Shown in pieces: positions 2,560 to 40,982 of a DNA stretch of 64,000 bases. A program made the translations under genes and the position numbers. The stretch spans positions 395-64,394 of the forward strand of contig NZ_JABAHY010000014.1 in assembly GCF_012641515.1 (NCBI RefSeq), given 5' to 3'. This DNA is from Nesterenkonia sedimenti. GTDB lineage: Bacteria; Actinomycetota; Actinomycetes; Actinomycetales; Micrococcaceae. The notes under the pieces are model-generated. The model ran no database searches, had not been told where the DNA came from, and saw only the letters and a list, made by a program, of their open reading frames with translations. Numbering within the stretch: the stretch's first letter is position 1; the number at the start of each line of letters is the position of its first letter.

Positions 2560-4341
2560 TCAGCGGACACTGCGCATCCGCTTGGTCAGCAGGTGGATGG
2601 CCAACATGGCAATCAGCACAATCACCATCAACACCACACAGTAGGCAAAGGCATTGCCGAACTGACCGCGTTCGACCATGTTGTGGATCTGCTGGGTCAG
2701 CAGACGGGCATTCGGGGTGGTTAGGAAGATCACCGCCGAGATCGAGGTCATCGCCGAAGCGAAGGCGTACATCAGTGCGGCCATAAACGCCGGGCGGATC
2801 AGCGGCAGAGTGATCCGGCGGAAAGTCCCGGCGCTGGAGACCCCCAGGGATTGGCTGGCCTCCTCGAGGCTGGGATCGATCTGCTTCAGTGCAGCAATAC
2901 CGACCCGCTGGCCTGAAGGTGTGGAGCTGGAGCAGAAGGCCATCACAATGGCGATCGCCCCGCCGAAGGCCGCCGAACCGCCCACCAGGGTCGGCAGCAG
3001 CGGCACCCCGAAGACAGTGGTGGGAGTGGAGTAGCTCAACAGATATCCGATGCCGATTACGGTCCCCGGGATTGCGATACCCAGCATCCCCAGGAAGTCC
3101 AGCAGCCCGGCCCCGCGGCGCAGTTTGGTCACCACCAGCCAGGCCACCAGCATGCCCAGCACCCCGGCGATCGGGGTGGCCACCAGCGCCATCCGGATGG
3201 TGTGCACCATCGCCTCGGAGCCGATATTGCCGGTGAGCACATATTCGAAGTTGTCCAGGGTGAAGGAGTTGTTGACCCCCAGAATCCGGACGAAGGCACC
3301 AACAATGATCGTCCCGTAGAGCAACACCACGGTCGCGGCGAAGAGGTATACCCCCGCCAGCACCGGCAGCACGATGGCGGGCGCCGTCGTCGTCGGGGGT
3401 TTGCCTGAAGGCTTACCGGTGACCGAAATATGGGAGCCACGCTGAGCCCAGTACCGCTGGATGATGAAAACAGCGACGGCGGGGATCATCAGTACCAGCG
3501 CATAGGCGGCACCACCGGGCAGGTTGTACTGACCGATGATCGCGTTATAGGCGCTGGAGGCCAGCACGGAGTAGTCCCCGCCGAGCACCAGGGGGTTGGA
3601 GAGGTCACTGATCGCCTCGACGAACAGCAGCAGGAAGGCGCCACCGAAACCGGGGACCAGCATCGGCAGGGTCACCGTCCGGAAGACCCGCCAGCGGGAG
3701 GCGCCCAGCGAGGATGCCGCCTCCTCATGGGCGGGATCCAGCGCCCGGATCATGCCTAAGAGGTTCAGATAGGCCAGCGGCAGATAGCTCAGTGCCAGCA
3801 CAAAGGTCAGCCCCGGCAGACCGTAGATGAAATCAGACCGCAGACCGAAGAACCCTTCGGTGATCATCCCGGAACGGCCGAACAGTGTGATGGTCGAGGC
3901 TGCCACAGCGAATGGCGGGGAAATGATCGGCACCAGGGTCAGCAGATGCACAATCCGTTTCCCAGGGAACCGCATCCGGGCCTGGGCGTAGGCCAACATG
4001 AAGGCCACAGCGGTGCCGATAACACCGGTGACCAGACCCAGCACCACCGTGTTGACGAACATACCGCGCTGCACCGGGGAGGTGAAGAACCGCTCCAGCA
4101 CCGCCCAGCCGTCCTCGGAGAAGGCCTCGCTGAGCACATTGAGCACCGGCAGCCCGATGAGCAGGGTCAGGGCGGCGATGACCAGCAGAAGCATGGCCAG
4201 GGTGATCCCGTCCATCCTCCGGCCGGAACCACCCCGACGCCGACGCTTGCTCCGGCCCGGCGGCAGCGTTGCAGCACTGCCGCCGGTTTCGGGGGCCGCC
4301 GGGGTCCCTGGGGTGACTGCAGTGACGGACCCAACTGTCAT
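2560..4341 (-). CDS. ABC transporter permease, two fused permease domains (FbpB type)
   Basis: A 593-residue inner-membrane protein with an N-terminal Arg/Lys-rich cytoplasmic stretch, a first helix near residues 48-72 and two repeated permease halves. Each half carries an EAA-type loop contacting the ATPase: EEAASSLGASRWRVFRTVTLP in the first and EEASQSLGVSSAGTFRRITLP in the second. Fusion of both permease domains in one chain is normal for FbpB/ThiP-like transporters. It begins 7 bases after the binding-protein stop, consistent with co-transcription. The ATG at 4341 is the first start, and it is compatible with the long hydrophilic N-terminus. Confidence 0.85.
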   Translation of the reverse strand: MTVGSVTAVTPGTPAAPETGGSAATLPPGRSKRRRRGGSGRRMDGITLAMLLLVIAALTLLIGLPVLNVLSEAFSEDGWAVLERFFTSPVQRGMFVNTVVLGLVTGVIGTAVAFMLAYAQARMRFPGKRIVHLLTLVPIISPPFAVAASTITLFGRSGMITEGFFGLRSDFIYGLPGLTFVLALSYLPLAYLNLLGMIRALDPAHEEAASSLGASRWRVFRTVTLPMLVPGFGGAFLLLFVEAISDLSNPLVLGGDYSVLASSAYNAIIGQYNLPGGAAYALVLMIPAVAVFIIQRYWAQRGSHISVTGKPSGKPPTTTAPAIVLPVLAGVYLFAATVVLLYGTIIVGAFVRILGVNNSFTLDNFEYVLTGNIGSEAMVHTIRMALVATPIAGVLGMLVAWLVVTKLRRGAGLLDFLGMLGIAIPGTVIGIGYLLSYSTPTTVFGVPLLPTLVGGSAAFGGAIAIVMAFCSSSTPSGQRVGIAALKQIDPSLEEASQSLGVSSAGTFRRITLPLIRPAFMAALMYAFASAMTSISAVIFLTTPNARLLTQQIHNMVERGQFGNAFAYCVVLMVIVLIAMLAIHLLTKRMRSVR

Positions 4342-36568: not shown

Positions 36569-37088
36569 GGGAAACTCCTGCGTTGACAACCACAGCGGAC
36601 ACCGCGGCAGTCCCAGGTCGCGTGCTTTAGCTGTACTGGCAGCCATAGGACTAGTGGCAGCCGGGTGCGCCAACTATCCAGCCGATCCTGAGGACAGCCT
36701 CGAGACGGCCCGTGGATCCCAACTGCAGGTGGGGGTCACCGAGAATCCGCCCTGGGTGGAGATCGACGATGACGACAAACCTTTTGGCCTGGAAGCTGAA
36801 CTCATCATTGACTATGCCGAACGGCTCGATGCTGAGGTGGCGTGGACCGTTGGCAGTGAGTCGGAGCTGATAGGTCTGCTGGATTCACACCAGTTGGACG
36901 TTGTGATCGGCGGGTTCGATGAGAACACACCCTGGCAGTCTGAGGCTGCCACCACCCGGCCCTACGGCACTGCCAGCGACGGTACTGGTCGTGTGCTGTT
37001 GGTGGAGATGGGTGAGAACGCATTGCTGAGCGATATGGAGCGTTACCTCATTGACACCGAGGACGAACGTGCCGGGGAGATGCCATGA
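36567..37088 (+). CDS. Half-size family-3-like solute-binding lipoprotein
   Basis: A 173-residue lipoprotein. The signal region (RALAVLAAIGLVAAGC) ends in the lipobox AAGC, about residue 34. The mature part has LQVGVTENPPWVEIDDDDKPFG and LEAELIIDYAERLDAEVAW, then VGSESELIGLLDSHQLDVVI, typical of the first lobe of family-3 amino-acid-binding proteins. The second lobe is essentially missing. It overlaps the CDF transporter gene as ATGA. A truncated binding protein coupled to a cation exporter suggests a metal- or ligand-sensing role rather than import, but this is only inferred. The Asp-rich loop could bind metal. Confidence 0.65.
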   Translation: MGNSCVDNHSGHRGSPRSRALAVLAAIGLVAAGCANYPADPEDSLETARGSQLQVGVTENPPWVEIDDDDKPFGLEAELIIDYAERLDAEVAWTVGSESELIGLLDSHQLDVVIGGFDENTPWQSEAATTRPYGTASDGTGRVLLVEMGENALLSDMERYLIDTEDERAGEMP

Positions 37089-38089
37089 ACGCCTTCGGTC
37101 ACGCTGAACTTCCCGCTGAACAGAAAGATGCGCTGGCCAAAGCACGCAAGATCCAGTGGATATGGCTGGGCGTGCTGGTGCTCACCGTGGCAGCCATGGC
37201 CACCGTGATGGGCAATTCTCAAGCGATGCAGACCGCACTGGTGGAAGACGGCCTCTCCTTCTTACCTCCCCTGGCGTTTCTGATCGGTGCCCGAGTCGCC
37301 AGAATGGCACCCAGCAGACGGTTCCCCTTCGGATTTCACCGGGCAGTGGGCGTGGGGCATTTGGTCTCCGGGGTGGCTTTGGCCGGAATCGGCCTGCTGC
37401 TGATCTTTGAGGGGGCCAGCACGCTCCTGGAGCAGAAGCACCCGCCGATCGGGGTGGTGAACTTTCTCGGAACCCCCATCTGGATGGGGTGGCTCATGAT
37501 GAGCGTGGCTCTGGCCAGCTGTATCACCCCGGTGATTTTGGGGCGGATCAAAAGGCGCCTGGCCGAACAGTTGCACGATAAGGTACTGCGCGCAGATGCG
37601 GATATGAACCGAGCCGACTGGATGACAGGCCTCGCCACCGCAGCGGGTGTGGCAGGTATCGGCATGGGCTGGTGGTGGGCCGATGCCGCGGCTGCACTGC
37701 TGATCTCGATCAGCATCACCAAGGACGGGTGGGAGAACACTCGCGATGCCATCCGGGATTTAGTGGATATGCGCGCGACCACTTTCGACAACTCTCAGCC
37801 CCACTGGCTCATCGGTCAGATCAATGCCGAAGTACTGGATGATCCGCTGGTCCACAGCGTCCAGGCCCGGGCGCGTGATCAGGGCCATGTGCTGCACGTT
37901 GAGCTGTTTGTCCAGCTCCGGCAACCCGGAGTCGAAGTCAGTTGGGTCGAGCAGCTGCGCGAGAGGTGCCGCAACCTCGATTGGCGTCTTGAGGATGTGG
38001 TGATCACGCTGACCAGTCAGCCGTTCCAGGAGGGCGAGAGCAGCTTAGATCACGATCAGGGTGAAGGTATGGGTCCCCGGGCCGACTAG
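37085..38089 (+). CDS. Cation diffusion facilitator (CDF) transporter
   Basis: A 334-residue membrane exporter for divalent metals. Six hydrophobic segments are visible; conserved points are PFGFHRAVGVGHLVSGV (loop and TM3) and LRADADMNRADWMTGLA, the TM5 Asp-rich transport site (here D-x-x-x-x-x-D in place of the common HxxxD). A cytoplasmic C-terminal domain follows (VHSVQARARDQGHVLHVELF). The stop TAG (38087-38089) lies in the CTAG that became the target duplication of the IS481 element, so the gene was not damaged by the insertion. Metal specificity is unknown. Confidence 0.8.
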   Translation: MNAFGHAELPAEQKDALAKARKIQWIWLGVLVLTVAAMATVMGNSQAMQTALVEDGLSFLPPLAFLIGARVARMAPSRRFPFGFHRAVGVGHLVSGVALAGIGLLLIFEGASTLLEQKHPPIGVVNFLGTPIWMGWLMMSVALASCITPVILGRIKRRLAEQLHDKVLRADADMNRADWMTGLATAAGVAGIGMGWWWADAAAALLISISITKDGWENTRDAIRDLVDMRATTFDNSQPHWLIGQINAEVLDDPLVHSVQARARDQGHVLHVELFVQLRQPGVEVSWVEQLRERCRNLDWRLEDVVITLTSQPFQEGESSLDHDQGEGMGPRAD

Positions 38090-38143
38090 CTGTTGCTGGC
38101 CAGGAGGTTCTTGACGTTGCTCGCGGGTGGCTGGGCGCGCAGC

Positions 38144-38258
38144 TACACTGGTGTCATGCGGATGCAGCAGCGATTTCAAGACCCCCGGCCGGGATATGGC
38201 CGCGGGGTCTTCGACGCGCAGTCGTAGCGCAGTAGGTCTCCGCAGGTACGGCCGGGGG
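38144..38258 (+). promoter_or_regulatory. Promoter, leader ORF and alternative RNA pairings before the PheS-like gene
   Basis: TACACT (38144-38149) lies 7 bases before ATG 38156, which opens a 23-codon leaderless ORF (MRMQQRFQDPRPGYGRGVFD, then AQS) ending at TAG 38225-38227. Inside it, AAGACCCC...GGCC (38178-38190) pairs with GGCC...GGGGTCTT (38198-38211). The CCCCCGGCC at 38182-38190 pairs perfectly with GGCCGGGGG at 38250-38258 instead. The two pairings exclude each other, as in a translation-dependent attenuator. Confidence 0.5.
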
Positions 38259-38305
38259 AAGTTTCTCGTCCTTCACCTACCTGCCATCTTCTTGGAGACT
38301 TTCTC

Positions 38306-39424
38306 ATGTCGCACGCCGACTATCTGACTTCCGACCAGCTCTATCGTGCTCTCAATACGCGCGACCTTACCGATCCCGACCAGGGACGGCACGCCATCCA
38401 GTCTCTCCTGCAATCGGTCATCGACCGTTTGCAGCCCGAGTGGGACAGCTCCCTCCGGTATGTGCGCAGCTCGCCAGTCGTTCCTGTTCGGGACAACTAC
38501 GACCGCCTCGGTTACGAACCAGGTGATGTGACTCGGGCTCGCCGGTACACCCGGTACATCAGCCCCGCCGTGATGCTCCGCAGTCACATGAGCGCCGAAC
38601 TCCCGCGCGCCCTTGAGGACTATGCGGGGATGTCCGAGGTGGATGAGTTACTCGTGGTACCCGGCCTCGTCTACCGTCGCGACGCCGTCGATCGCACGCA
38701 CGTGGGGGAACCGCACCAGGTGGACCTGTGGCGCATCCGTAGCACTCCGGATACCGGTGACGAGGACATGCTCACGATGATCGGCCACTTGGTTGAGGCA
38801 GTCCTTCCAGATGCGCAGTGGAGAACAACAGACGTGGCGCACCCATACACCGTCGGTGGTAGGCAGATCGACGTGTTCCACGACGGCGAATGGCTTGAAC
38901 TCGCCGAGTGCGGCCGCATCCATCCCGAGGTGCTGCGCGGATCGGGCCTCGACCCCGAGCGATGGTCCGGCCTGGCTCTCGGTATGGGCCTTGAACGTGC
39001 ACTCATGCTGCGCAAGGGCATCCCTGACATCCGCTATCTCCGGGCAGAAGACCCGCGCATAGCAACCCAGATGCTCACCCTTGATCCATGGCAGCACGTT
39101 TCACTTCTGCCTGCGGCCCGGCGCGACATCTCAGTCGTCGTGGATGCACAAGAGGACGAGGAGACGCTTGGTGACCGCATCCGCGTCGCCCTCGGAGACA
39201 ACGCCGACGTCATCGAGTCTCTCGAGGTTCTCAGCCGTACACCCCACGAGGGACTACCCGAGGCCGCGCGCTCTAGGCTCGGCACTCGGGAAAGACAAGT
39301 CAATCTCCTGATCCGGATCATGCTACGCCCCATCGACCGCACCCTGACCTCGGAAGAGGCCAACGTGATCCGCAACGTTATCTACGAGGCCGTGCATGAA
39401 GGCCCGGTGATGGAGCTGATCTGA
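38306..39424 (+). CDS. srmL: PheS-related ligase (class II aaRS-like core plus FDX-ACB domain)
   Basis: A 372-residue protein that resembles a fused phenylalanyl-tRNA synthetase alpha core and the anticodon-binding FDX-ACB domain, as in mitochondrial PheRS. Class II motif 3 is clear in LALGMGLERALMLRKGIPDI (about residue 225) and motif 2 lies in the WLELAECGRIHPEVL region. The C-terminal third has ARRDISVVVD and ERQVNLLIRIMLRPIDRTLT, typical of FDX-ACB. It lacks the PheT subunit and most of the N-terminal tRNA-binding coiled coil. I recall such genes being named PheS-related mystery ligases (SrmL). Its substrate is unknown; it is a passenger inside the IS481 element. Confidence 0.8.
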   Translation: MSHADYLTSDQLYRALNTRDLTDPDQGRHAIQSLLQSVIDRLQPEWDSSLRYVRSSPVVPVRDNYDRLGYEPGDVTRARRYTRYISPAVMLRSHMSAELPRALEDYAGMSEVDELLVVPGLVYRRDAVDRTHVGEPHQVDLWRIRSTPDTGDEDMLTMIGHLVEAVLPDAQWRTTDVAHPYTVGGRQIDVFHDGEWLELAECGRIHPEVLRGSGLDPERWSGLALGMGLERALMLRKGIPDIRYLRAEDPRIATQMLTLDPWQHVSLLPAARRDISVVVDAQEDEETLGDRIRVALGDNADVIESLEVLSRTPHEGLPEAARSRLGTRERQVNLLIRIMLRPIDRTLTSEEANVIRNVIYEAVHEGPVMELI

Positions 39425-39441
39425 GATCGCTGAGAGCAGCC

Positions 39442-40452
39442 ATGACCTCGCCTACGCATGCCAACGCTCCCCTCTCACCCGAAGGCCGACGCCGCCTGAT
39501 CGAACGCTGCCGCATCCGCCCTATCTCCCACGTGGCCGCCGAGATGGGGATCTCCCGCGCGACCGCCTCGAAATGGGTCAACAGATACAAGCGATTCGGG
39601 AACACCGGCCTACTGGACCGCTCATCCTCTCCGGCCCGACAGCCATCTGCAACGCCTGGCTACCTCGTGCAGCAGATCGAGTCGATGCGGCGCGAACACA
39701 AATGGTCGGCGTCCCGTATTGCGTTCGAGCTCGAGCAGGCAGGCACACCGGTGAGCCGTCGCACCATCACCCGGCTCCTCGCACAGCTGGGCCTGAATCG
39801 ACGGAAGTTTATCGACCCGAACGGCGAGACGAACCGGGAGCCGCAAAGTATCAACGCCAAACGTCCCGGCCACATGGTGCATCTGGACGTGAAGAAGGTC
39901 GGGCGCATCCCCGACGGCGGCGGGTGGCGTGTGCACGGCAAAGGCAGCGAGAAAGCCAAAGCTGTCGCCCGCACGAAGACCCGCGGTGCCAGGATCGGGT
40001 ACATCTACCTGCATTCCGCCATCGACGGACACACCCGGCTCGCTTACACAGAAGCGTTACCGGATGAGAGGGCCGTCACTGCCGTCGCGTTCCTCGGGCG
40101 GGCCAGAGCGTGGTTCGCTACGCACGGCATCACCCGGATCGAGCGCGTCGTGACTGACAACGGTTCCTGCTACCGATCTGCTGCCTTCCGCGAAGCGGTC
40201 GGGACCAGCCGACACCAGCGCATCACGCCATATACGCCTCGACACAACGGCAAAGTCGAGCGCTACAACCGGATCCTCGCTGAAGAGTTCCTCTACGCGC
40301 GCATCTGGCGCTCGGAAGCAGAACGCGCTGCCGCGCTGGAAACATGGAACCGGCACTACAACTATCACCGTCCCCACGGCGCTCACGAAGGGCAACCGCC
40401 TGCCTCTGCAACATCGGCACACGTCGACAACGTCATGGCCTCATACAACTAG
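39442..40452 (+). CDS. IS481-family transposase
   Basis: A 336-residue transposase. A helix-turn-helix lies near the start (ISHVAAEMGISRATASKWVNRY), then a second winged region (WSASRIAFELEQAGTPVSRR). The catalytic DDE residues are Asp149 (HLDVKKVG), Asp239 (VVTDNGSCYRS) and Glu273 (NGKVERYNRILAEEF). Near full length for the family (about 320-350). The last codon is completed and the TAG stop supplied by the duplicated target CTAG, so the coding end and the element end coincide. It may be active: no frameshift is seen. It is 17 bases after the PheS-like gene. Confidence 0.92.
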   Translation: MTSPTHANAPLSPEGRRRLIERCRIRPISHVAAEMGISRATASKWVNRYKRFGNTGLLDRSSSPARQPSATPGYLVQQIESMRREHKWSASRIAFELEQAGTPVSRRTITRLLAQLGLNRRKFIDPNGETNREPQSINAKRPGHMVHLDVKKVGRIPDGGGWRVHGKGSEKAKAVARTKTRGARIGYIYLHSAIDGHTRLAYTEALPDERAVTAVAFLGRARAWFATHGITRIERVVTDNGSCYRSAAFREAVGTSRHQRITPYTPRHNGKVERYNRILAEEFLYARIWRSEAERAAALETWNRHYNYHRPHGAHEGQPPASATSAHVDNVMASYN

Positions 40453-40982
40453 CCGTGCCGAAAGACCTTCTCATAGCACCGGGAGTAATCGGCTGCAATG
40501 TAGGGCCAGTAGATCGGGATCCGCTGCCAGCCCCGCTTCTGGTACAGGGCCTCAGCATCGGGCTGCCGGTCTCCGGTCTGCAGGATCAGCCGCGGCGCAC
40601 CGGTGGCCCGGGCTGCCTCCTCCAGGGCATCCATCAGCGTTGAGGCGGCCCCCTTGCCCCGGGCCTCAGGCACCACGTAGACCCGCTTGACCTCAGGGGT
40701 TCCATCCAAATCCCGCAGCAGTCCCTGGGCAACGGGCCGGTTCTGCTCATCGGTGACCAGCACGGTCGTCAGCACACTCTCAGGGGTTATAGTTCCTGCG
40801 GGATGATCGGTGCGGCCCTCCAGATTGGCCAGGTTCCCGCCGTGCCGGTCGGCATAGCGAGGACCGATCTCCGCGCCCATCGCCTCCTGGAGAGCCACCG
40901 CACGCGGATCATCGGCGGCCACATGTTCTACCACCCAGCGGCTGTGGGCAATCCCCTGCCCAGAGGGTGTATTCGCCTGCAT
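40449..40982 (-). CDS. GNAT-family N-acetyltransferase
   Basis: A 177-residue acetyltransferase. The acetyl-CoA loop is VYVVPEARGKGAASTLMDAL, after VTDEQNRPVAQGLLRDL and before ARATGAPRLILQTGDRQPDA. The ATG at 40982 is preferred over the upstream extension because a -10-like TAGCCT lies 7 bases before it, which fits a leaderless transcript. The stop codon (TAG, complement of CTA 40449-40451) lies in the right target duplication of the IS481 element, so the insertion did not damage it. In other sulfur clusters GNAT enzymes acetylate S-alkyl cysteines before monooxygenase cleavage; the same could apply here. Confidence 0.8.
   Translation of the reverse strand: MQANTPSGQGIAHSRWVVEHVAADDPRAVALQEAMGAEIGPRYADRHGGNLANLEGRTDHPAGTITPESVLTTVLVTDEQNRPVAQGLLRDLDGTPEVKRVYVVPEARGKGAASTLMDALEEAARATGAPRLILQTGDRQPDAEALYQKRGWQRIPIYWPYIAADYSRCYEKVFRHG

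Follow-up and report, generated by a model that had tools for sequence, protein, structure and literature searches.

An IS481-family transposon with a ligase gene

We analysed a stretch of 64,000 nucleotides of contig NZ_JABAHY010000014.1 from Nesterenkonia sedimenti (the window, to whose positions coordinates refer unless another locus is named), which contains a complete 2.4-kb transposon of the IS481 family, flanked by ACTAGC on either side (38085–40453). The element carries two genes on the forward strand: srmL (38306–39424), whose family profile, AlphaFold model and fold match identify the 372-residue product, with a single Phe, as a monomeric ligase resembling phenylalanyl-tRNA synthetase (PheRS), and an IS481-family DDE transposase gene of 336 codons (39442–40452; NF033577, 295.3 bits with a cut-off of 224). 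The left inverted end (38091–38117, forward strand) matches the right one (40421–40447, reverse strand) at 19 of 27 positions, and none of 20,000 random pairs of 27-mers from the window reached 18 matches or more; the right target duplication (40448–40453) repeats the left ACTAGC (38085–38090). The inverted ends, the perfect duplication and, between the ends, the intact transposase and PheS-like genes read by an initial annotation of this DNA are thus borne out.

The duplicated CTAG holds two stop codons, the TAG of the transposase, in the right duplication, and that of the upstream cation-efflux gene (37085–38089), in the left one. Excerpts of PMC6794481 describe a similar arrangement in Rhodococcus equi, whose IS481 transposon TnRErm46 has erm(46) as cargo and a CTAG target that gives TAG stops to both the transposase and the target gene, although TnRErm46 measures 6.9 kb, against 2.4 kb, and the cargo in the window consists of a single ligase gene preceded by a leader of its own. 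The idea that IS481 elements normally carry only a transposase was therefore too strong.

A second copy of the element, in Nesterenkonia sp. PF2B19 (locus L033), is 96.7% identical over window positions 38086–40454, with the homology ending at the duplication. Because this copy has different flanks and its own target duplication, TCTAGC, transposase and ligase must have moved as one unit, and the ligase, similar to an aminoacyl-tRNA synthetase (aaRS), is indeed the cargo of a real, mobile element. Within the N. sedimenti genome the element is complete only once, and three further matches are short and partial. Of the insertion history that the initial annotation proposed to check, the duplications ACTAGC and TCTAGC are present, and a clean empty site was not found: a left-flank query of 1,006 bases matched 11 of 57 other genomes searched, and none of the 11 matches extended beyond position 960, short of the junction.

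SrmL scores above its family cut-off in 26 of 394 genomes of the class and in 11 of 396 of the order (the two samples overlap), and in the family designated f27 srmL is present in 21 of the 22 sampled genomes. We gathered 60 distinct loci, fragments included: the window, 25 class loci (viewed with 1.5-kb flanks for the count of IS481 associations), 16 further loci, four plasmids, six phages and eight later loci; ten later loci were retrieved, two of which, L123 and L126, duplicate the records L043 and L037, respectively. An IS481 transposase or end adjoins srmL in only five of the 60, with the transposase downstream in the window, L033 and L047, and a retained left end in L045 and in L034, where roughly 30 bases of the transposase gene also survive; an IS481 remnant lies upstream of srmL in L037 and L065. 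The remaining loci are on chromosomes, plasmids and huge phages. The plasmid copy from Azotobacter is 52% identical, and the copies in the six phage records, of 181–635 kb, are 39–45% identical; repeated searches for further phage relatives yielded no new record. Homologues outside IS481 ends, which the initial annotation had named as a refutation of its reading, are thus the rule, with neither a transposase after srmL nor an end before it in 55 of the 60 loci, and we rejected srmL as an integral part of the transposon because it stands alone in most loci viewed.

Blast comparisons of mechanically called open reading frames (ORFs) revealed no conserved neighbours or biosynthetic cluster at chromosomal srmL loci, where neighbours are shared in part only. 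Some actinobacterial copies are decayed through internal deletions, frameshift or truncation (L034, L044, L045, L046 and L048), as expected for a gene that is useful only at times. A tRNA or tRNA-like gene inside the element was also considered and rejected: ARAGORN found none in the window, and Rfam none in 37900–40600.

A PheRS-like protein nearly devoid of phenylalanine

The window ligase belongs to NCBIfam NF051887, 'PheS-related mystery ligase SrmL', which it matches with 517.8 bits (cut-off 300) over profile positions 2–349 of 349; this cut-off is also exceeded by the Azotobacter copy and by all six phage copies. Pfam recognises the tRNA-synt_2d domain, and the FDX-ACB (B8) anticodon-binding domain, which at 26.4 bits lies under the Pfam cut-off of 31.1, is supported by a whole-chain fold match to mitochondrial PheRS. 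With an AlphaFold model built from 26 sequences (pLDDT 89.8), the top seven Foldseek matches in the PDB were all human mitochondrial PheRS, with template-modelling (TM) scores of 0.77–0.79 for the first six, and the best matches of a profile search were likewise mitochondrial PheRS (4e-34). The class II motif 2 and 3 residues R124, R125, D126, H137, Q138, G226, G228 and R231 are invariant in the 26 sequences. The domain plan of the modelled SrmL appears to be a catalytic module plus a B8 domain, as in mitochondrial PheRS. According to excerpts of PMC3275996, there are three forms of PheRS, of which the mitochondrial one consists of these two parts, is monomeric and lacks editing, and is termed the only known monomeric class II aaRS. 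SrmL resembles FARS2, the monomeric mitochondrial enzyme, in having the closest solved fold, apparently the same domain order, no PheT and no editing domain, and differs from it in its bacterial and phage origin, an identity of only 22–23%, a changed pocket, the near absence of Phe and the presence of a leader peptide.

The 36 full-length actinobacterial SrmL proteins contain three Phe in 13,814 residues (33 have none and three have one), the Azotobacter protein has one in 370 residues, and five of the six phage proteins have none; the count for phages L071 and L074, which show no good in-frame start, is from the matched codon at 3001. Not included among the 36 were L038 (full length, no Phe), the damaged L034 (one Phe in 333 residues), L044 and L045 (none in the pieces read) and the fragments L046–L048, L067 and L068. 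Of the eight later new loci, six lack Phe, L130 has one and L128 has two; the residues counted run from where the tblastn match begins to the stop, and in L132 cover 274 residues only. In alignment A6, three rows are cut at their 3' ends. The other aromatic residues occur at normal levels (Tyr 2–5%, Trp 1.1–1.6%), and PheS from the N. sedimenti genome contains 18 Phe, with 17–20 in four other actinobacterial PheS. Among the 46 ORFs of the window of at least 200 codons, which average 3.2% Phe, srmL has the lowest fraction. At 15 alignment columns with Phe in at least three of four PheS, 17 aligned SrmL carry Tyr, Leu, His, Met, Ile and others, the sole Phe being one in phage L073.

Low use of the cognate amino acid in biosynthetic enzymes, or cognate bias, is described in excerpts of PMC4209129. 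In literature that comprises few subscription journals, we found no paper on the near-total absence of the cognate amino acid from a synthetase, and, in the open-licence literature of PubMed Central (PMC), none on Phe depletion, a Phe leader or a phage link of SrmL. The name of the family was likewise absent from the papers searched, and those listed with SrmL in their text dealt with unrelated subjects.

Leaders of srmL in actinobacteria, Azotobacter and phages

Sequence conservation upstream of the window srmL, in alignment with stand-alone srmL genes, starts at a −10-like hexamer, TACACT (38144–38149, forward strand, as for all leader features), a putative promoter element. A few bases after it starts a short ORF (38156–38227) for the peptide MRMQQRFQDPRPGYGRGVFDAQS, which is probably translated leaderless. 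Its motif F-x-x-P-R stands at one fixed place in 40 of 40 leaders, in L047 and in ten of ten later loci, two of them repeats, which makes 49 of 49 distinct leaders, and it is kept even between loci whose SrmL are only 50% identical. The residue before the Phe varies. The candidate sensor codon, TTT at 38174–38176, lies three codons before the conserved Pro codon, and Phe is encoded by TTT in 48 of the 49 distinct actinobacterial leaders, in genomic surroundings where TTT makes up 12% (window), 10% (group-A neighbourhoods) or 4% (f27, f24 and f15 neighbourhoods) of Phe codons. For L038, a CTG at the start position was taken as the start; leaders were not sought in L046, L048, L067 and L068, in which the 5' part of srmL is missing. 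A covariance model of the leader gave one match each in 22 of 394 genomes, ten of which were in the model, and all of them upstream of srmL; with strict filters, it found no leader before other genes in these 394 genomes, and it missed four of the 26 genomes with SrmL (f24 and f15).

Five RNA segments can be distinguished: segment 1, CCCCCGGCCG (38182–38191), which is complementary to segments 2 and 4; segment 2, GCGGGG (38202–38207), which can pair with 1 or 3; segment 3, GGTCTCCGC (38235–38243), which can pair with 2 or 5; segment 4, CGGCCGGGGG (38249–38258), a perfect complement of segment 1; and segment 5, the Shine-Dalgarno region of srmL, GGAGACT (38294–38300), complementary to segment 3. 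The possible pairings are hence 1:2, 2:3, 3:5 and 1:4. The conservation of P-R may stem from the RNA, because segment 1 encodes these two residues. In the window, the duplex of segment 1 with the region after the leader stop has −26.6 kcal/mol, which three of 300 shuffles equalled, and in 15 of 15 representatives segment 1 fits the post-stop region better than shuffles do (0–7 of 300 as good). Segments 3 and 5 vary between groups and yet, by eye, stay complementary; a double change occurs once in helix 2:3, and in two sequences in helix 3:5.

The phage leaders are built differently. In L069, a leader for MNTNTTFNFFFSHKMV, with four Phe, is followed by a strong 11-bp terminator (z −4.93). A further segment pairs with the Phe codons, and its GGUCUGAG can alternatively bind the terminator's 5' arm; this predicted pairing is the usual plan of an attenuator. 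The duplex of the L069 segment that corresponds to segment 1 was matched by six of 300 shuffles. Likewise, in L072 a leader for MNMLNKNNFSFFMFDFFGTQARGAILLKE, with six Phe, precedes a terminator (z −2.11). Attenuators of the pheST and pheA type, governed by Phe codons, are a known system, which L069 resembles in its Phe-rich leader ORF, competing hairpins and terminator; the actinobacterial leaders differ from it in having one conserved Phe codon, an apparently hidden Shine-Dalgarno region and no T run afterwards.

In phages L071 and L074, srmL lacks a start codon at the expected place, and in L074 no in-frame ATG, GTG or TTG occurs downstream of the tRNA genes. Instead, both have at 2987–3004 an 18-base ORF behind a Shine-Dalgarno-like site, for LEFHG in L071 and MGFSR in L074, with one Phe codon each and a stop that overlaps srmL out of frame. 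By shifting −1 at this Phe codon, a ribosome would enter srmL and make an SrmL of normal length, so that the layout is a possible frameshift sensor for Phe-tRNA. Frameshifting at hungry (starved) codons is a known effect, to which the layout of these mini-ORFs corresponds, although here it would be a built-in sensor. In L071, srmL is flanked on both sides by tRNA-Phe(GAA) genes, and in L074 a tRNA-Phe gene lies 120 bases upstream of srmL, separated from it by a tRNA-Val gene. In L070, a phage contig of 508 kb, the end of an ORF similar by eye to histidyl-tRNA synthetase (HisRS) directly precedes srmL (2735–2986), which indicates that synthetase clusters of phages can include srmL.

On the Azotobacter plasmid (L066, 5812–5960), a leader with a single Phe (MMNNRSHRFSRPW...) is accompanied by a terminator-like hairpin whose 3' arm also matches segment 1. 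The sequence suggests control of the Azotobacter srmL by transcription termination; two of 300 shuffles were as good as its segment 1 duplex. Rfam searches of L066, L069 and L072 gave no matches. By eye, the only residue common to the actinobacterial, Azotobacter and phage leaders is Phe.

Proposed function of SrmL and its alternatives

We consider it likely that SrmL is a Phe-free emergency enzyme similar to PheRS, which supplies charged tRNA-Phe under control of its leader. It would be a stand-alone monomer, with a class II catalytic domain and a C-terminal FDX-ACB domain, serving as a reserve charger when charged tRNA-Phe is scarce, for instance when the resident PheST is inhibited or destroyed. 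The ribosome would then stall at the leader Phe codon, the leader RNA or the reading frame would change, and srmL would be expressed; since SrmL has practically no Phe, it could be made while Phe codons are undecodable. In actinobacteria, the stalled ribosome would cover part of segment 1, whose start lies eight bases downstream of that of the Phe codon, segment 2 would pair with segment 3, and the Shine-Dalgarno segment 5 would be free. The direction of the switch, with Phe shortage inducing srmL, is inferred from the leaders of the phages, the lack of Phe in SrmL and the type of enzyme. The likely trigger would be loss of PheST activity, whether through inhibition or because PheRS or tRNA-Phe is attacked, because a second PheRS is useless without free Phe; the resistance-gene neighbourhood described below and the phage copies fit this trigger. 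Among the matches listed from the PheRS-inhibitor literature, no story was tied to the SrmL family. Mobile elements, such as the IS481 transposon and resistance-gene regions, and huge phages would carry SrmL to bypass the resident PheRS.

Several observations weigh against this proposal, some of them concerning the switch. Covariation within group A is modest, its score being reached by 103 of 500 and 31 of 500 shuffles, and for helix 3:5 one slid control lay above the real value (0.193 versus 0.155). In a simple simulation, stalling at the Phe codon failed to release the Shine-Dalgarno region, with mean accessibilities of 0.26 for a ribosome stalled there, 0.25 without ribosome and 0.33 for one at the stop, and more access with a stalled ribosome than without one in 17 of 40 leaders. 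A simple switch of the erm type therefore has no support from the simulated release. Among the phages, the L072 duplex was no better than shuffles (158 of 300), L071 offers an alternative in-frame ATG at 2959, which if used would bring one Phe into the protein, and no Phe leader was seen in L070 and L073. None of the other four phage loci has a tRNA-Phe gene near srmL, and the nearness in L071 and L074 may be due to chance, because their clusters comprise 12 tRNA genes in 7 kb. Regarding composition, phage L073 (2998–4149) encodes six Phe, with neither a Phe-rich leader nor a nearby tRNA-Phe gene, and keeps the His-x-Tyr pocket described next. Nor is low Phe unique to SrmL: the next lowest ORF of the window, of the GNAT type and 200 amino acids, has one Phe, and ORFs neighbouring other srmL loci, spurious ones included, average 1.8–1.9%.

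Other objections concern the enzyme. SrmL stays under the cut-offs of the curated PheRS models (TIGR00468, 90.2 of 237.45 bits; TIGR00469, 113 of 258.35 bits), and its pocket is unlike that of bacterial PheRS, with ttPhe258 and ttPhe260, which hold the ring of the substrate in bacterial enzymes, replaced by His179 and Tyr181, and a pocket glycine by Glu201, in 26 of 26 sequences. Avoidance of Phe alone does not explain these changes, because L073, which does have Phe, shows them too, and the substrate of SrmL may not be Phe. However, excerpts of PMC3275996 report that eukaryotic cytosolic PheRS has Asn and Tyr at the two positions and still uses Phe, so that Phe is still a possible substrate of SrmL. 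SrmL probably works like a PheRS, and it is classed as SrmL because its scores do not reach the curated PheRS models. Of the roles considered in the initial annotation, tRNA charging is the one favoured by the evidence.

The pocket also bears on an improbable alternative, that under shortage of Phe-tRNA SrmL charges tRNA-Phe with another amino acid, such as Tyr or a non-standard aromatic one, the absence of Phe keeping its own sequence correct during misreading of Phe codons. This would agree with the invariant polar substitutions His179, Tyr181, Glu201 and Asp140, and with the lack of an editing domain, which SrmL shares with mitochondrial PheRS, an enzyme that attaches Tyr to tRNA-Phe according to the same excerpts of PMC3275996. 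Replacing Phe across the proteome would nevertheless be costly, and the cytosolic enzymes with Asn and Tyr at the same positions use Phe. Moreover, the HisRS-like ORF of L070 keeps a Phe codon in a GFAIG stretch, which we take to be a HisRS motif, so that Phe codons seem to mean Phe in that phage.

The company of resistance genes raises another alternative. On the Glutamicibacter plasmid pGnB68 (L065), srmL adjoins the gene for the chloramphenicol exporter Cmx, within a block that is 98% identical over 4 kb to that of Brevibacterium mcbrellneri L037. The shared block contains cmx, the IS481 transposase remnant, srmL and a DUF1772 gene (L037 3338–6648; L065 4338–7648), and as it recurs in two genera, on one contig and one plasmid, srmL travels with the chloramphenicol exporter. 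On two Corynebacterium plasmids, the 3' part of srmL survives as a remnant flanked by erm(X) and tet(65) (L067 6001–6648; L068 5001–5246), a trace of passage through a resistance region. SrmL might then confer drug resistance by modifying an antibiotic or some other small molecule, its leader sensing drug-stalled ribosomes as in erm or cat, since translational leaders are usual for such genes. We regard this as very unlikely, because it leaves the Phe-free composition, the FDX-ACB domain and the Phe-rich phage leaders unexplained, and because Phe is the one residue seen by eye to be shared by the three kinds of leaders.

That SrmL serves the transposon in target choice or maintenance, as the initial annotation also considered, or in control of transposition can practically be dismissed: the two are co-mobilised in the window and in L033, but the 55 loci without IS481 transposase or end, including those of f27, contradict such a role.

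To return to SrmL as a reserve PheRS, excerpts of PMC9437257 describe auxiliary resistance synthetases, among them TrpRS1 of Streptomyces (indolmycin) and the plasmid-borne IleRS2/MupA (mupirocin), tryptophanyl- and isoleucyl-tRNA synthetases, respectively. Like these, SrmL would be a mobile or inducible second copy of an essential aaRS, and, unlike them, it avoids its own amino acid almost completely; PMC9437257 gives no example of a PheRS, with neither the term PheRS nor phenylalan in its text. As a check with a similar script, five of 12 TrpRS loci were readable, and four Streptomyces loci had a tandem-Trp leader ORF. Such an ORF is expected for TrpRS1. The Streptomyces TrpRS1-type genes (L117–L120) have a leader ORF ending in WWAA and encode one Trp each; L122, a further TrpRS, lacks Trp altogether. 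Other auxiliary synthetases may thus also avoid their own amino acid, although TrpRS is Trp-poor anyway.

Evenly balanced, in our judgement, is the broader claim that SrmL represents a fourth, mobile form of PheRS, a monomer of bacteria and phages. In this view, evolution has stripped it of nearly all Phe to allow its translation while Phe codons go unread, and its Phe-codon sensor comes in three or more designs, among them a hairpin switch, a terminator and, in two phages, frameshifting at a starved Phe codon. The gene would act in resistance and counter-defence against natural inhibitors of PheRS or attacks on PheRS or tRNA-Phe, and would be spread by IS481 transposons, plasmids and huge phages. 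In any case, a family that NCBI lists as a mystery now has a testable function. If the proposal is true, a bacterial monomeric form would join the three known forms of PheRS, and its compactness would make it of use in synthetic biology. It would also imply that natural PheRS inhibitors or PheRS-directed attacks exist and are still to be discovered, and SrmL, avoiding the amino acid that it would handle and preceded by a sensor made from the codon for it, would be a clear case of a protein whose composition has been moulded by the emergency in which it is needed.

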